A stretch of DNA of 64,000 nucleotides from Micromonospora parathelypteridis (lineage in GTDB: Bacteria; Actinomycetota; Actinomycetes; Mycobacteriales; Micromonosporaceae): positions 2,170,001 through 2,234,000 of the forward strand of contig NZ_JACHDP010000001.1 of NCBI RefSeq assembly GCF_014201145.1, read 5' to 3'. Every line of letters starts with the position of its first letter. Positions within the stretch are counted from its first letter, which is position 1. Of this stretch, positions 46,891 to 52,676 are shown piece by piece. Below the pieces are notes generated by a model, which saw nothing but the letters and a program-made list of their open reading frames with translations, was not told the origin of the DNA and ran no database searches. A program made the translations under genes and the position numbers.

Positions 46891-48003
46891 ATGAGCCGCA
46901 CCGTAGTGCCCCGCCCCACGCTGCTGCCCGGCCTCAATCGGCTCTGGCGAGACCGACACACCCTGCAGCTCGGCGTCGGCCCCGGGCCTGCCGTGCTGCT
47001 GGAGCTGGCCAACCCCCGCGCCGCCCACCTGCTCGACCTGCTCGACGGCACCCGCAGCGAGCGAGCTGTGCTGGCCCAGGCGGCCACCGCCCGGGTCACC
47101 ACCGACGACGCGCGTACCCTGCTCGACGCCCTGCGGGCGGCCGGCCTGCTGGTACCCGCGCACAGCCTGCTCCCCCGTGACCTGGCCGGCGCGGTCCGTG
47201 CCCGGCTCACGGCCGAGGCCTGCGCCCTGGCCCTGACCGCCGCTCGACTGCCCGGCACCCCTGCCCAGGTCCTCCGTCGGCGGCGGACCGCCCGAGTCGT
47301 GCTCACCGGCGCCGGGGCGCTCGGCGGGCCGCTGACGGTGGCGTTGGCCCAGTCCGGCGTCGGGCAGGTGATCCCGCTGCTCACCGGCCCGGTACGTCCC
47401 GTCGACCTGATCGGCACGGGCATCCCCGCCACCGAGCTCGGCAACCCGCTGGCACCGGCGGTGCGGGCCGCGGTCGACCGCCTCGCACCGGGCACCGGAA
47501 CCCAGCCGAGCCGGACCGGTCGGGTGGACCTGGTACTCCAGCTCGGCACCGACCGGCCGCCCGCGCTGCTCGCCGCGGGTTTCGCTCAGCGCCGGCAGCC
47601 ACACCTGCTGGTCACCCTGCGCGAGGGCGTACCGGTCGTCGGGCCGTTGGTCCGCCCACCCGCGGGGCCCTGCCTGCACTGCGTGGAGCTGCACCGGGCC
47701 GACCGCGACCCGGACTGGCCGCGGCTCGCCGCCCAGCTCGCCGCCGCCGACCCGGTGGCCGCCGGCGCGACCGGCACGCTGCTCGCGGCCATCGGGTACG
47801 CGCTGGCCGAGGCGTTGACACAGCTTGACGGCGGGCAGCCGGAGACACTGGGCGGGGCCATGGAGATCAGTGCTGCCGGCCGTTTCCGTCGCCGGGGTTG
47901 GCCGCCACACCCGGCGTGTGGGTGCTCGCAGGGACGAGTGTCCGCACCAGCCCGGCCGCAGAGCAGCAGCGGGGCCCTCCGGTCGGTAACAATGACCGGG
48001 TGA
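46891..48003 (+). CDS. ThiF/E1-like protein (TOMM-type leader-binding domain homologue)
   Basis: A 370-residue protein. The N-terminal PTLLPGLNRLWRDRHTLQLG resembles the winged-helix, peptide-binding start of TOMM cyclodehydratase partner proteins. A Rossmann loop follows (VVLTGAGALGGPLTVALAQS), then zinc cysteines CLHC and CGC near the end, as in ThiF/MoeB enzymes. The E1 adenylation residues are not evident and the protein is short, so it may bind rather than activate. No precursor peptide or YcaO gene lies in the window. ATG at 46891 directly follows a GGTCAC/GTGACC palindrome; 46870 is an alternative start. It overlaps the ABC1-kinase gene as GTGA. Confidence 0.75.
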   Translation: MSRTVVPRPTLLPGLNRLWRDRHTLQLGVGPGPAVLLELANPRAAHLLDLLDGTRSERAVLAQAATARVTTDDARTLLDALRAAGLLVPAHSLLPRDLAGAVRARLTAEACALALTAARLPGTPAQVLRRRRTARVVLTGAGALGGPLTVALAQSGVGQVIPLLTGPVRPVDLIGTGIPATELGNPLAPAVRAAVDRLAPGTGTQPSRTGRVDLVLQLGTDRPPALLAAGFAQRRQPHLLVTLREGVPVVGPLVRPPAGPCLHCVELHRADRDPDWPRLAAQLAAADPVAAGATGTLLAAIGYALAEALTQLDGGQPETLGGAMEISAAGRFRRRGWPPHPACGCSQGRVSAPARPQSSSGALRSVTMTG

Positions 48004-49346
48004 CCGACATCCCGCGCCGCGCCGTGTCCCGCACCGCCAAGCTCGCCGCCCTGCCGCTCGGCTTCGCCGGCCGGACCGTTCTCGGCATGGGAAAGCGCGT
48101 CACCGGGCTCGCCTCCGACGTGATCTCCGCGGAGATCCAGCAGCGCACCGCCGAACAACTGTTCAGCGTGCTGGGCCAACTCAAGGGCGGGGCGATGAAG
48201 TTCGGCCAGGCGCTGTCGGTCTTCGAGGCGGCGTTGCCGGAGGAGATCGCCGCGCCCTACCGTCAGGCGCTCACGAAGCTCCAGGAGGCGGCGCCACCGC
48301 TACCGGTCGCCAGCGTGCACAAGGTGCTCACCGAGCAGCTCGGCCCGGACTGGCGGGAGCGGTTCGTCGAGTTCAACGACGTCCCGGCCGCCGCCGCCAG
48401 CATCGGTCAGGTCCACCGGGCGCGATGGCGGGAGCCGGGGTTGGACGAGTCGGGCGCGCCGAACAGCCGCGACGTGGCGGTCAAGATCCAGTATCCGGGC
48501 GCCGGGGAGGCGCTGCTCGCCGACCTGAAGCAGCTCTCCCGCCTGGGCGGGATGTTCCGGGCCATCCAGCCCGGTCTGGACGTCAAGCCGCTCCTGGTCG
48601 AGCTGCGCGAGCGGATCACCGAGGAACTGGACTACGAGCTGGAGGCCGAGTCGCAGCGCACCTTCGCGGCGGCGTACGCCGACGACCCGGAGATCTACAT
48701 CCCGAGGGTGGTCCATGCGGCGCCTCGGGTGCTGGTCACCGAGTGGGTGACGGGCACACCGCTGGCTGACATCATCCGCGAGGGCACCGAGGAGGATCGG
48801 GACGAGGCGGGCCGGTTGATGGCCACCCTGCACCTCTCCGCGCCGCAGCGGGCCGGGCTGCTGCACGCCGATCCGCACCCGGGAAACTTCCGGCTGCTGC
48901 CCGACGGCCGACTCGGGGTGATCGACTTCGGTGCGGTGGCCCGGATGCCGGAGGGCACGCCGGAGCCGATCGGTCGCATCGCGGCGCTGGCCCTGAGCGG
49001 TGATGCCGACGAGGTGGTGGCGGGGCTCCGGTCAGAGGGCTTCATCGGCTCGGCGGAGGAGATCGACGCCGAGGGCGTGCTCGACTTCATCCGTCCGATG
49101 CTGGAGCCCATCGCGGCGGACGGGTTCCGGTTCACCCGGGCCTGGCTGCGGGGCGAGGCGGGCCGCCTGGCGAGTCCCCGCTCCCCCACGTACCAGCTGA
49201 GCAGGCAACTCAACCTGCCGCCGTCGTACCTGCTGATCCACCGGGTGACGCTCGGATCGATCGGGGTGCTCTGCCAGTTGGAGGCGAAGGCCCCGTACCG
49301 CAGCATCCTGGAGCGCTGGCTGCCCGGCTTCGCCCCGGTCGCCTGA
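48000..49346 (+). CDS. ABC1/AarF/UbiB-family atypical kinase
   Basis: A 448-residue protein corresponding to Rv3197. The family-specific LGQLKGGAMKFGQALS (KxGQ), ASIGQVHRARW, VAVKIQYPGAG and LHADPHPGNFRLL with GVIDFGAV define it. UbiB-type kinases support quinone or lipid handling; M. tuberculosis Rv3197 has been linked to macrolide tolerance. It is translationally coupled to the E1-like gene. It lies beside whiB7 as in mycobacteria. Confidence 0.92.
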   Translation: MTDIPRRAVSRTAKLAALPLGFAGRTVLGMGKRVTGLASDVISAEIQQRTAEQLFSVLGQLKGGAMKFGQALSVFEAALPEEIAAPYRQALTKLQEAAPPLPVASVHKVLTEQLGPDWRERFVEFNDVPAAAASIGQVHRARWREPGLDESGAPNSRDVAVKIQYPGAGEALLADLKQLSRLGGMFRAIQPGLDVKPLLVELRERITEELDYELEAESQRTFAAAYADDPEIYIPRVVHAAPRVLVTEWVTGTPLADIIREGTEEDRDEAGRLMATLHLSAPQRAGLLHADPHPGNFRLLPDGRLGVIDFGAVARMPEGTPEPIGRIAALALSGDADEVVAGLRSEGFIGSAEEIDAEGVLDFIRPMLEPIAADGFRFTRAWLRGEAGRLASPRSPTYQLSRQLNLPPSYLLIHRVTLGSIGVLCQLEAKAPYRSILERWLPGFAPVA

Positions 49347-49401: not shown

Positions 49402-49581
49402 CTAGAGAACGCCCAGGTCGCGCGCCGTCTGGTTGCGGCTGTTCATGGCGACGGTACGGGCGGATCGGGCTGCCTCAGTGCTCGTGGTGGTACGACCGGC
49501 CTGAGGCCGGCGCATTCGAGCCCGGGACAACGCTTCGTGGAGTAGTTGCATCTCGAAGGCTCCAGTCGGAACGGTGAACAT
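49402..49581 (-). CDS. Small hypothetical protein downstream of whiB7
   Basis: A 59-residue soluble peptide, MFTVPTGAFEMQLLHEALSR at its start, then a basic, Ser/Thr/Arg-rich tail. The N-terminal ~25 residues could form one amphipathic helix. No family is recognised. ATG at 49581 has GAGAGAGAAG upstream. It begins 58 nt after the whiB7 stop on the same strand and ends at the shared terminator, so it is probably co-transcribed with whiB7 and induced by the same antibiotics. Confidence 0.6.
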   Translation of the reverse strand: MFTVPTGAFEMQLLHEALSRARMRRPQAGRTTTSTEAARSARTVAMNSRNQTARDLGVL

Positions 49582-49639: not shown

Positions 49640-50005
49640 TCAGGCTGCCAGCCGGACCGCGCCACGCACCTCGGACAGCCCAGTGGCTGCCAGGCGCGCC
49701 TCGGCCTCGACCCGAAGTGCGGCGTCACGAGCGACGTCCTCCTTGCGCGGACGGCCACGGGGCCGCTTACGCGGGACAACCGCGCCACGCTCGAAGATCT
49801 CGCCGCCCCAGACGCCCCACGGCTCGGCCCGCTCCACCGCCCCGGCAAGGCACTCGACGCGCAGCGGGCAGTCCCCGCAGAGCGACTTGGCCAGCTCGAG
49901 CTCGGCAGGCGAGTCGGAGAACCACAGGTCGGGGTCGAACTTCCGGCAGGGCAGGTTCGCCTCCATTTCGACGCTCACGTCGAGGGGGGCCAACGCCAGA
50001 CTCAT
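49640..50005 (-). CDS. whiB7: WhiB7/WblC antibiotic-resistance regulator
   Basis: A 121-residue WhiB protein with cluster ligands C20, C43, C46 and C52 and the WhiB7 signature EPWGVWGGEIFERGAVV. The AT-hook KRPRGRPRK is at 80-88. It works with the primary sigma factor to activate intrinsic resistance genes when ribosomes are inhibited. The same neighbours (Rv3197-like kinase and uvrD2) confirm orthology. Its leader carries an upstream ORF, antiterminator and intrinsic terminator. The ATG at 50005 has GAGAGG 10 nt upstream. Confidence 0.97.
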   Translation of the reverse strand: MSLALAPLDVSVEMEANLPCRKFDPDLWFSDSPAELELAKSLCGDCPLRVECLAGAVERAEPWGVWGGEIFERGAVVPRKRPRGRPRKEDVARDAALRVEAEARLAATGLSEVRGAVRLAA

Positions 50006-50072
50006 CTCCCGGTCACCTCTCTCTCACTTCGATCTCGTGGATCGCATTCCGACGTACGTACTTACGGCGGGC

Positions 50073-50117
50073 AAAAAACTGAGGCCGCGGATCCCGGTAA
50101 GCGGGTTCCGCGGCCTC
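50073..50117 (-). terminator. Intrinsic attenuator in the whiB7 leader
   Basis: On the minus strand GAGGCCGCGGAACCCG pairs with CGGGATCCGCGGCCTC (one mismatch), loop CTTA, followed by AG and TTTTTT (50078-50073). It is the only hairpin in the window with a true T6 tract and lies about 70 nt before the whiB7 start. Confidence 0.9.
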
Positions 50118-50160
50118 GAGGTGAGCCGGTGTCTGATGGTCAGACCGGTTTACCTCGAGG
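50114..50160 (-). promoter_or_regulatory. Antiterminator alternative to the whiB7 attenuator
   Basis: Self-complementary CCTCGAGG occurs at 50114-50121 and 50153-50160, and between them CCGGTCTGA pairs with TCAGACACCGG (2-nt bulge). The downstream CCTCGAGG shares GAGG with the terminator arm, so the two structures exclude each other. The upstream-ORF stop codon (50140-50142) lies within this structure, so a terminating ribosome would block it. Confidence 0.75.
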
Positions 50161-50388
50161 TGGAACGCCGCGGACATCCATGCGCTTCTTGGCGAGCTGG
50201 ATGCCATTGCCCGTGAAGCCACTGGTCCCCTCGACTCCGACGGGCGCGACGGTCAGGATCAGCTCGGCCTGAACCTGGTGCACCTGCGGAACCGCCGGTC
50301 GTGCGGCCGTGTGGGCCACCCGGACAGCCGACAACGGAGCGCAGACAGACGGCATCGCCGTCAGACGCTCATAGGTGAAGATCTTCAC
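50140..50388 (-). CDS. 82-codon upstream ORF in the whiB7 leader
   Basis: Starts at GTG 50388 after a strong GGGAGGTGG and encodes MKIFTYERLTAMPSVCAPLS followed by a mixed sequence ending RMDVRGVPPRGKPV. No domain, signal or membrane helix is seen. It lies between the whiB7 promoter and the attenuator. Upstream ORFs that sense slowed ribosomes are known for whiB7/wblC genes, and this one fits the role by position. At 82 codons it is long for that purpose and may also make a stable peptide. Confidence 0.75.
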   Translation of the reverse strand: MKIFTYERLTAMPSVCAPLSAVRVAHTAARPAVPQVHQVQAELILTVAPVGVEGTSGFTGNGIQLAKKRMDVRGVPPRGKPV

Positions 50389-50474
50389 GGGTGCCACCTC
50401 CCTCACGTTCCTCGTATCGACCAGACCAACCCCGGTGAGCAGCCGGAATGGCGCCGCTCGCGTGGTGTGTCCTG

Positions 50475-50512
50475 AGGCTATTCCTCGCGCCGGGGCGAGG
50501 GCAAACGAATTT
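50475..50512 (-). promoter_or_regulatory. WhiB7-type promoter of the whiB7 leader
   Basis: On the minus strand AAATT (50512-50508) lies exactly 3 bp before TTGCCC (50504-50499), an 18-bp spacer follows, then TAGCCT (50480-50475). An AT-rich stretch 3 bp upstream of the -35 element is the published mark of WhiB7-activated promoters. It overlaps the last codons of uvrD2. Confidence 0.75.
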
Positions 50513-52676
50513 AGGACGAGATTTCGAAAGTTTTCTCCGGGCAGACGTCGTCCACCCCCGCGCCCCCCACCAACGCCAGCACCGACTCCCCGTAGAGGCC
50601 CAACTTGCGGGGGCCGATACCGGCGATGGCGATCAACTCCTCCGGCCGGCCAGGTCGCCGCTCGGCCAGCGCGATCAGCGTCGCGTCGGTGAAGACCACG
50701 TACGCCGGGACCTTCTGTGCCCCGGCGACCCGCTGCCGCCACTCAGACAGCCGTTCGTGCAGCTCATCGTCGATGTCGGACGGGCAGGTGGGGCAGCGGC
50801 CGAGCTTGCGGTCCGGGCCGGCGAGCAGGGTGGCGCCGCAGATCCGGCAGGAGACGATCTGGGTTCGACGCCGCTCGGGACGGCGGGCCGGACCGGCACC
50901 ACTGACGGCCCGTTCGGTGCCGCCGGAGCGGTCGAGCTGGGGCAGGAACCGCGACGGCCGTCGGGCTCGTCCGCCCGGCGAGCGCGCGGCGGCGTACGAC
51001 AACCAGAGCCACTGCCGGGCGCGGGTGATCCCGACGTAGAGCAGTCGGCGCTCCTCCTCGACCTGCTCGACGGTCTTCGCGTACGTGGTTGGCAGGGTGC
51101 CCTCGGCGAGGCCGACCAGGAAGACCGCGTCCCACTCCAGCCCCTTGGCCGAGTGCAGCGAAGCGAGGGTCACCCCGTCCACGGTCGGTACGTGCTGCTG
51201 GGCGGCACGACGGGCCAACTCCTCGGTGAAGTCGGAGAGGGTGACGGGGCGTTCCACCGACGCGGCCTCACCGATCGGCACGACCTCGGGGGTGGCCGCG
51301 TACTCCTCGGCGAGCTGGACCAGCGCGGACAGCGCCTCCCACCGCTCGCGGGCGGCGCCGCCGGCCGGGGGCGCGTCGGGGGCCCAGCCGACCGCGGTGA
51401 GGGCCTCGACGACGGCGGCCGGCAGCGGCGTCTCCCCGGGGATCGACCGGGTGGCGGCACGCAACGCGACCATGGCCTGGCGCACCTCGGCCCGTTCGAA
51501 GAACCGCTCGGCGCCCTGCACGACGTACGGCACCGCGGCCTCGGTGAGCGCCTTCTCGTACGCCTCGGACTGCGCGTTGATCCGGAACAGCACGGCGATC
51601 TCCTTCGCCGGTGTGCCCGCATCGATCAGCGACCGGCAGCGGGCGGCCACCGCGTTCGCCTCGGCGGGCTCGTCGGTGAAGATCCGCAGATCCGGCTCGG
51701 GCCCGGGTGGGCGTTGCCCGCTCAACTCCAGCCGCAGCCGCGCCTCGGTGCCCCGGGCCTGGGAGATCACCGCGTTGGCGAGCCCGACCACCTGCGGGGT
51801 GGAGCGGTAGTCGCGGACCAGTCGCACGACGGTGGCGCCCCGGTGCCGGCGCGGGAAATCGACCAGGTACGCCGAGGTCGCACCGGTGAACGAGTAGATC
51901 GTCTGGCTGGCGTCGCCGACCACGGTCAGGTCGTTGCGTCCGCCCAGCCAGGCGTCCAGCAACCGCTGCTGGAGTGGGTTGACGTCCTGGTACTCGTCGA
52001 CCACGAAGTGCCGGTACTGGCCACGCACCTGCTCGCCGACATCCGGGTGTTCCTCGATGCCCCACACTGCGGCACGCAGCATGTCCTCGAAATCGATCAC
52101 ACCGTTCGAGCGTTTGAGCTGCTCGTACGCGGTGAACACCTCGGCCACCTTGGCCGGCTCGTGCGGCGTGTCACGCAGTGCTCGGGCTGCGGAGACGACG
52201 TAGTCCGTCGGCTCGACCAACGACGACTTGGCCCACTCGATCTCGCCGGCCAGGTCGCGCGCGGCGGCCCGGTCGGTGCGCAGGCCGACCCGGGCCGCGG
52301 CGAGGGTGACCAGCCGTACCTTGCTGTCCAGCAGCTCGGGCATGGCGCGGCCGGCCAGCAGGCGGGGCGCGAAGTACCGCACCTGGCGCAACGCCGCCGC
52401 GTGGAACGTGCGCGCCTGAACGCCCTTCACCCCGAGTTGGGCGATTCGATGTCGCATCTCGGCGGCGGCGCGGGCGGTGAAGGTGACCGCGAGCACGTGC
52501 CGGGGGGAGATCTCACCGGAAAGCGCCCGATGGGCGATCCGGGAGGTGATCGCCCGGGTCTTGCCGGTGCCGGCGCCGGCCAGGATGCAGACCGGGCCGG
52601 CGGGTGCGGTCACCGCGGAGCGTTGCTCCGGGTCCAGCCCGGCGAGCACCTGTTCCGACGCTGAGTGAACCACCAC
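50511..52676 (-). CDS. uvrD2: UvrD2-type DNA helicase
   Basis: A 721-residue superfamily 1 helicase (Rv3198c-like). Walker A is LAGAGTGKTRAITSRIAHRA, Walker B is FVVDEYQDVNPLQQ, motif III is VGDASQTIYSFTGA and motif VI is LLYVGITRARQWLW. The C-terminus has a tetracysteine motif (CRICG ... CPTC) followed by an HRDC domain, the arrangement specific to mycobacterial and related UvrD2. It begins with GTG at 52676, without a strong ribosome site. Divergent from the mycoredoxin gene. Confidence 0.95.
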   Translation of the reverse strand: MVVHSASEQVLAGLDPEQRSAVTAPAGPVCILAGAGTGKTRAITSRIAHRALSGEISPRHVLAVTFTARAAAEMRHRIAQLGVKGVQARTFHAAALRQVRYFAPRLLAGRAMPELLDSKVRLVTLAAARVGLRTDRAAARDLAGEIEWAKSSLVEPTDYVVSAARALRDTPHEPAKVAEVFTAYEQLKRSNGVIDFEDMLRAAVWGIEEHPDVGEQVRGQYRHFVVDEYQDVNPLQQRLLDAWLGGRNDLTVVGDASQTIYSFTGATSAYLVDFPRRHRGATVVRLVRDYRSTPQVVGLANAVISQARGTEARLRLELSGQRPPGPEPDLRIFTDEPAEANAVAARCRSLIDAGTPAKEIAVLFRINAQSEAYEKALTEAAVPYVVQGAERFFERAEVRQAMVALRAATRSIPGETPLPAAVVEALTAVGWAPDAPPAGGAARERWEALSALVQLAEEYAATPEVVPIGEAASVERPVTLSDFTEELARRAAQQHVPTVDGVTLASLHSAKGLEWDAVFLVGLAEGTLPTTYAKTVEQVEEERRLLYVGITRARQWLWLSYAAARSPGGRARRPSRFLPQLDRSGGTERAVSGAGPARRPERRRTQIVSCRICGATLLAGPDRKLGRCPTCPSDIDDELHERLSEWRQRVAGAQKVPAYVVFTDATLIALAERRPGRPEELIAIAGIGPRKLGLYGESVLALVGGAGVDDVCPEKTFEISS

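Follow-up and report, generated by a model that had tools for sequence, protein, structure and literature searches.

A probable Micromonospora version of the whiB7/wblC leader attenuator and a conserved nucleotide box within its upstream open reading frame

Intrinsic drug resistance of actinobacteria is under the control of WhiB7, and the Micromonosporaceae count antibiotic producers among their members. The abstract of Lee, Lee & Roe 2022 (Mol Microbiol) reportedly describes conserved antiterminators in sub-clades of actinomycetes, and the Micromonosporaceae version treated here may be among them. Transcription attenuation of whiB7/wblC mediated by an upstream open reading frame (uORF) is presented as established, with credit to Lee, Lee & Roe 2022, in the available portions of PMC11550727 and PMC12421871, and it is reported for mycobacteria in the portion available of PMC4128351. 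We analyzed the leader of whiB7 on the minus strand of a 64,000-nucleotide stretch of Micromonospora parathelypteridis DNA (hereafter the window; coordinates are positions in it). Like the attenuator of Streptomyces and Mycobacterium, as outlined in excerpts of PMC11550727, PMC12421871, and PMC13393426, this leader combines a uORF, an intrinsic terminator before whiB7, an antiterminator, and a promoter predicted to be of the autoactivated type. Sequence comparison gives strong support for a whiB7 attenuator in Micromonosporaceae, and we put the probability that the element belongs to the whiB7/wblC uORF-mediated attenuators, as their Micromonospora representative, at roughly 0.88. The predicted features are as follows.

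50475..50512, minus strand: whiB7 promoter, with AAATT (50512-50508), 3 bp, the -35 element TTGCCC (50504-50499), 18 bp, and the -10 element TAGCCT (50480-50475); from the sequence.
50395..50401, minus strand: Shine-Dalgarno (SD) sequence GGAGGTG of the uORF, a 7-base match to the anti-SD complement; from the sequence.
50140..50388, minus strand: uORF of 82 codons, with a GTG start at 50388 and a TGA stop at 50142-50140; from the sequence, with homologous frames at the same position in the family.
50215..50232, minus strand: in-frame conserved box GAGGGGACCAGTGGCTTC, the Micromonospora variant of CAGGGGACCRGTGTGTCC; from comparison of uORFs.
50152..50160, minus strand: antiterminator 5' arm CCTCGAGGT, within the last uORF codons; from sequence, folding, and comparison.
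50114..50122, minus strand: antiterminator 3' arm ACCTCGAGG, whose GAGG is shared with the base of the terminator 5' arm; from sequence, folding, and comparison.
50081..50117, minus strand: terminator hairpin with the stem GAGGCCGCGGA/TCCGCGGCCTC; from sequence and folding; across 50 distinct family leaders, 99.3% of its cells are paired.
50073..50078, minus strand: T6 tract of the terminator; from the sequence.
49640..50005, minus strand: whiB7, encoding 121 amino acids with four Cys, GVWGG, and an AT-hook-like RGRPRK; Pfam Whib match with E 1.1e-13.

The promoter with its 3-bp and 18-bp spacings, the GTG-started 82-codon frame with a strong ribosome site, and the arms flanking the uORF stop codon together with the hairpin and T6 were all found where a preliminary description had placed them. 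For comparison, leaders were taken from 110 of the 117 family genomes with a WhiB7 match, 40 of the 169 class matches, 65 loci from three further searches, and 80 named loci. The family set f1 was taken as Micromonosporaceae and the genus set g65 as Streptomyces, both by inference. Terminators were located by a motif anchor; three of 168 family loci (L083, L108, and L111) and four of 127 others without an anchor or a uORF were excluded before counting. The resulting 165 family and 123 other loci contain repeats, and correspond to 148 and 115 distinct leaders, respectively; distinct-sequence counts are preferred because the named loci partly duplicate other genomes in the set. The uORF start was picked by script as the strongest SD match, so that individual uORF lengths may be off, and the assignment is doubtful in a few distant family members (e.g., L101, L102, and L113).

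RNA folding of the arm and terminator region, proposed in the preliminary description as a check, gave -56.2 kcal/mol against -33.5 ± 3.9 kcal/mol for shuffled sequences (z -5.8), and none of 200 shuffles was as low. A helix of at least 7 bp taking terminator bases (GG) was found in each of the 148 distinct Micromonosporaceae leaders for which a uORF was identified, and among the 115 distinct others in 62; with the 3' end of the uORF shuffled, it arose on average in 12.7 of 165 family and 9.2 of 123 other loci (near 8%). The arms co-vary as pairs, for example CCTCGAGG/CCTCGAGG, CCTCGAAGT/ACTTCGAGG, and CCTCGAGA/TCTCGAGG, with CCTGGAG/CTCCAGG outside the family. The CCTCGAGG palindromes of the window stand against CCCTGGAG/CTTCAGGG in the loci taken as Streptomyces. 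Across 50 distinct family leaders, 92.3% of the cells of the antiterminator and inner helices were paired, and three of 13 pairs changed on both sides, one belonging to the 9-bp antiterminator helix and the other two to the inner helices; shuffles gave a mean of 0.4, with 3 of 500 reaching three. In the terminator of the same leaders, two pairs changed on both sides (3/500 shuffles).

According to the preliminary description, antiterminator and terminator cannot form together. This holds for the 4 bp over the shared GAGG; in the minimum-energy structure, the terminator is present together with the inner 5 bp of the antiterminator. Between the full states there is a difference of just 1.8 kcal/mol (-48.5 vs. 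-50.3 kcal/mol). Since exclusivity is limited to 4 bp and the states are so close, the choice between them must fall during transcription. When the growing RNA was folded, the outer antiterminator pair had a probability of 0.97–0.99 at the lengths folded up to 81 nucleotides (nt) of the segment, which fell to 0.04 on completion of the terminator; the antiterminator forms before the terminator because it is transcribed first. When pairing was barred, by an imposed assumption, for the bases that a ribosome halted at the stop codon would cover, the terminator formed. A complete hairpin with T6 in the whiB7 leader, kept throughout the family, makes it very unlikely, though no search was made for pairing with the whiB7 ribosome site, that whiB7 is controlled at translation through sequestration of that site rather than at transcription; the available part of PMC9226507 indicates that some resistance leaders, such as that of vmlR, combine both types of control.

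WblC recognizes GAAAWY 3 nt upstream of the -35 element, according to the accessible part of PMC7157823, and TAAATT of the window agrees at five of six positions, exactly 3 nt upstream of -35. The loose pattern AAWY-N2-4-TTG-N19-23-TANNNT preceded the uORF in 142 of 148 distinct Micromonosporaceae leaders and 111 of 115 distinct others, compared with 0.4 of 165 family and 0.3 of 123 other loci for base-shuffled upstream regions. By locus, the family had the loose pattern in 158 of 165 cases and the stricter [AG]AAWY pattern in 92 of 165. The stretch CAGGACACACCACGCGAGC at 50456-50474 (minus strand), just 3' of the -10 element and near the expected transcription start, was alike in the Micromonospora leaders inspected. 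With the end of the upstream helicase gene at 50511, and with open frames arising easily at high GC content, the hairpin might be merely the terminator of that gene and the uORF a chance frame in GC-rich DNA. This explanation is exceedingly improbable, as a conserved promoter lies between the helicase gene and the hairpin in the 142 leaders just mentioned, the helix is tied to the uORF stop in every distinct family leader with a uORF, and the indels described below favor the frame.

For the uORF-mediated attenuator, we infer the transcription start, translation, termination, induction, and drug specificity as follows. Transcription would start just 3' of 50475 from the WhiB7-type autoactivated promoter. 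In an unstressed cell, the ribosome would traverse the 82 codons, stop at 50140, and cover CCTCGAGGT; the antiterminator would then not form, GAGG at the terminator base would be free, and RNA polymerase would halt at T6. Slowed or blocked translation, caused by a ribosome-targeting drug, amino-acid shortage, or failed initiation, would leave the 5' arm free, and the antiterminator would take GAGG, making the terminator stem 4 bp shorter and moving its base off the T tract, so that whiB7 would be transcribed and WhiB7 would feed back on its own promoter. The preliminary description had proposed such a ribosome-sensing attenuator with a WhiB7-type promoter, and this core is supported, with the pairing recurring in 148 of 148 leaders and the folding order as it had been described; its suppositions of an unusual length and a functional peptide are not.

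Several observations weigh against this attenuator. By the folding model, its two states are nearly isoenergetic, so that the outcome would hang on kinetics. Two-sided covariation within the family is thin, amounting to four cells, and at least as many further pair types arose in 69 of 500 shuffles. At the loop end of the helix, 28 of the 50 distinct family leaders lacked the T-A pair. Moreover, 53 of 115 distinct non-family leaders, including six of seven analyzable named Mycobacterium, were without the helix under the same rule, and the detailed pairing is therefore not universal. Among the named loci of Pseudonocardia and relatives (L280-L290), 9 of 11 were without the 7-bp antiterminator helix under this rule, and all nine Pseudonocardia uORFs (L280-L285, L287, L288, and L290) carried a variant box with TGV[ST] close to the stop. 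The switch of this group is perhaps built differently.

Two expectations about the uORF had to be corrected, since long uORFs proved common and their peptide close to neutral. The preliminary description called the frame unusually long, but 129 of 145 distinct Micromonosporaceae uORFs exceed 82 codons, with a median of 94; the length counts were also made without uORFs lacking a convincing ribosome site. The lengths were 79–95 codons across 28 named Micromonospora loci, 104–123 codons in 30 g65 loci, and 49–53 codons in seven named Mycobacterium loci, so that the 82 codons of the window differ from the lengths in both g65 and Mycobacterium; as judged from these frames, 82 codons is at the short end for the family and ordinary for the genus.

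The ratio of nonsynonymous to synonymous substitution rates (dN/dS) of the uORF was 0.83 in 31 uORFs from Micromonospora and close genera, compared with 0.19 for whiB7 in 29 sequences and 0.93–0.94 for the uORF in the wrong frames. Without its last 12 codons, the uORF gave 0.88, and the conserved small open reading frame (ORF) downstream of whiB7 gave 0.41 (30 loci each). On the other hand, 2958 of 5267 gaps (56%) in the uORF body were multiples of three, compared with 337 of 3119 (11%) and 152 of 2224 (7%) in two noncoding leader stretches; these counts are pairwise across leaders and hence non-independent. Frame-keeping indels together with a dN/dS near 0.85 indicate that the frame is selected and its amino acids hardly, and this fits a uORF that is under selection more for its translation than for the resulting peptide.

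These results make it unlikely that the uORF owes its length to a product acting as a functional small protein or as a sequence-specific arrest peptide. The preliminary description had raised a functional peptide, and the search for homologues that it proposed did find them in 47 of 121 family genomes (E <= 0.001), 45 beside WhiB7 and two, in G081 and G088, not. The C-terminus, often GVPPRGRPV (frequently GVPPRG[RK]PV in general form), is little varied, and QGT is the most over-represented short peptide pattern of the uORFs. However, with a dN/dS of 0.83–0.88, amino-acid changes accumulate nearly as fast as silent ones, unlike in whiB7 and the small downstream ORF of nearly the same species set, and the length varies among the named Micromonospora loci. 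The antiterminator arm and the stop region underlie the fixed C-terminus, which RNA pairing can therefore explain. The QGT signal is itself largely nucleotide, as a wobble T and GGG are kept while the amino acids change.

The evidence that the attenuator uORF holds a box conserved at the nucleotide level, which had escaped the preliminary description, is as follows. QGT occurred in 18 of 72 dissimilar uORFs from which the last 12 residues had been removed, with 1.7 expected (p 4e-13; best of 100 shuffled sets, 4e-7). The codons show that this pattern is largely a nucleotide motif, an 18-nt in-frame box with the consensus CAGGGGACCRGTGTGTCC. When scanned in any frame, the listed representative copies matching at least 15 of 18 positions were all in frame 0. 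In 86 non-redundant uORFs aligned on the peptide GT[SGNTARD], an amino-acid set chosen after the motif was seen, the next (fourth) codon ended in T in 73 of 110 cases (18.9 expected from codons for these amino acids in the rest of those uORFs), and the Gly codon was GGG in 45 of 110 cases compared with 57 of 538 elsewhere. Among distinct uORFs with the motif, the fourth codon was GGT in 32 of 32 of the g65 set, AGT, AAT, or ACT in 35 of 36 of the Micromonospora set (40 distinct), and ACT or AGT in 20 of 21 of the Actinoplanes type (25 distinct).

Of the distinct leaders, 101 of 148 in the family and 56 of 115 elsewhere had a box matching at least 13 of 18 positions, as did 9 of 288 base-shuffled regions in any frame. 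Its distribution is uneven, with 8 of 30 in the order of G280 and none of seven in named Mycobacterium, and it is absent or degenerate in many leaders; its logo is inflated by the selection of copies on score. The exact 17-mer AGGGGACCRGTGTGTCC occurred four times in 394 genomes, always upstream of whiB7 (reversed control, one), although it was partly derived from its own matches, the leaders of G128 and G374 having been used before (L155 and L216) and those of G157 and G218 not. A looser 16-mer gave 39 matches in 36 of 296 genomes (reversed control, eight), of which 20 were upstream of whiB7 and 19 either elsewhere or in genomes with no whiB7 place known for comparison; only the strict form is thus leader-specific. 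No further copy of the window's box version with fewer than three mismatches was found in the window genome. The box, at a sliding-window dN/dS of 1.5, is not singled out by this measure alone, since the first two windows gave 1.4 and 1.3.

Across 57 non-redundant copies, the box lay 36–282 nt from the uORF stop, and it is therefore not part of the antiterminator. Four other roles found no support: a local hairpin GGAC/GUCC is broken by the GGGCACC form common in g65 (inspection); for pairing with another leader segment, the average of the best helices was close to that of shuffled controls in 23 chosen loci; for an ORF that overlaps or is frameshifted, no common extent was seen in the other two frames of 37 chosen loci; and an internal SD sequence is not kept in g65 (GGGC; inspection). 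Tentatively, the box could be a fourth leader element, shared by several actinobacterial families in and outside the window's order, that paces RNA polymerase or the ribosome from a variable place in the uORF, the uORF being a translated runway whose peptide is nearly irrelevant. Most simply, the box would act as a programmed pause giving the first ribosome time to catch up before termination is decided; a signal of this kind would account for both the free position of the box and its constraint at the nucleotide level. The commonness of long uORFs and the near-neutrality of their peptide also point to a runway that reports translation itself, which would help explain the induction of whiB7 by chemically unrelated ribosome inhibitors and by amino-acid starvation.

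The window leader resembles the amino-acid attenuators trpL, hisL, and M. tuberculosis ilvB1, as presented in the available parts of PMC9291695 and PMC13236596, in that the position of a ribosome on a leader ORF would select terminator or antiterminator; unlike theirs, its ORF is long and, on inspection, has no obvious run of one regulatory codon. The consensus elemental pause of RNA polymerase is G-10Y-1G+1, according to excerpts of PMC9291695 and PMC6336406. All 22 non-redundant box copies from outside the family have these letters, having been chosen by a score that rewards them, in contrast to just 12 of 35 family copies. The window's box departs from the consensus, with G at -1 and C at +1 in the register fitting the other lineages, and an alternative register (G-10 T-1 G+1) is matched by 23 of the 35 family copies but by only 8 of the 22 from elsewhere. 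The box was not mentioned in the whiB7/wblC literature searched, of which portions of the texts were available, with the box letters not among the search terms and most subscription papers outside the coverage; because of these limits, this silence is weak evidence of novelty, although the box looks new. It poses a concrete, testable question within a well-studied circuit and is the part most worth pursuing.

The window genome comprises 7.01 Mb in a single contig. The WhiB7 orthologue lies immediately 3' of the leader, and 117 of 121 family genomes had one match each (E <= 1e-25). The closest WhiB7 proteins among the matches listed from named loci were those of Micromonospora sp. U21 (99%) and M. 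tarensis and M. lupini (98% each). The AT_hook Pfam match of the product (E 0.012) was under the family cut-off, and no NCBIfam model matched the product. In the 64-kb window, the Rfam scan returned only two tRNAs at gathering score and no match for the whiB7 leader; between 49900 and 50600, it gave twelve matches at E <= 10, none close to its gathering score.

The 5' neighbor of the leader is a UvrD-type helicase gene with an HRDC domain, whose TAA stop codon shares bases with the AT-rich promoter box of whiB7 (50508-50513, minus strand). An ABC1-domain gene (47898-49346, plus strand) is convergent with whiB7; the best NCBIfam model for its product was the macrolide-binding ATPase MABP-1, with 507 bits, below the cut-off of 800. 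M. tuberculosis presumably has the same whiB7 neighbors (Rv3197, whiB7, and uvrD2). Immediately 3' of whiB7 lies the small ORF with the dN/dS of 0.41, of 59 amino acids (49402-49581, minus strand), for which Pfam and NCBIfam gave no match. It is kept in place across Micromonosporaceae loci and weakly conserved in g65, and it is possibly an operon partner of whiB7.

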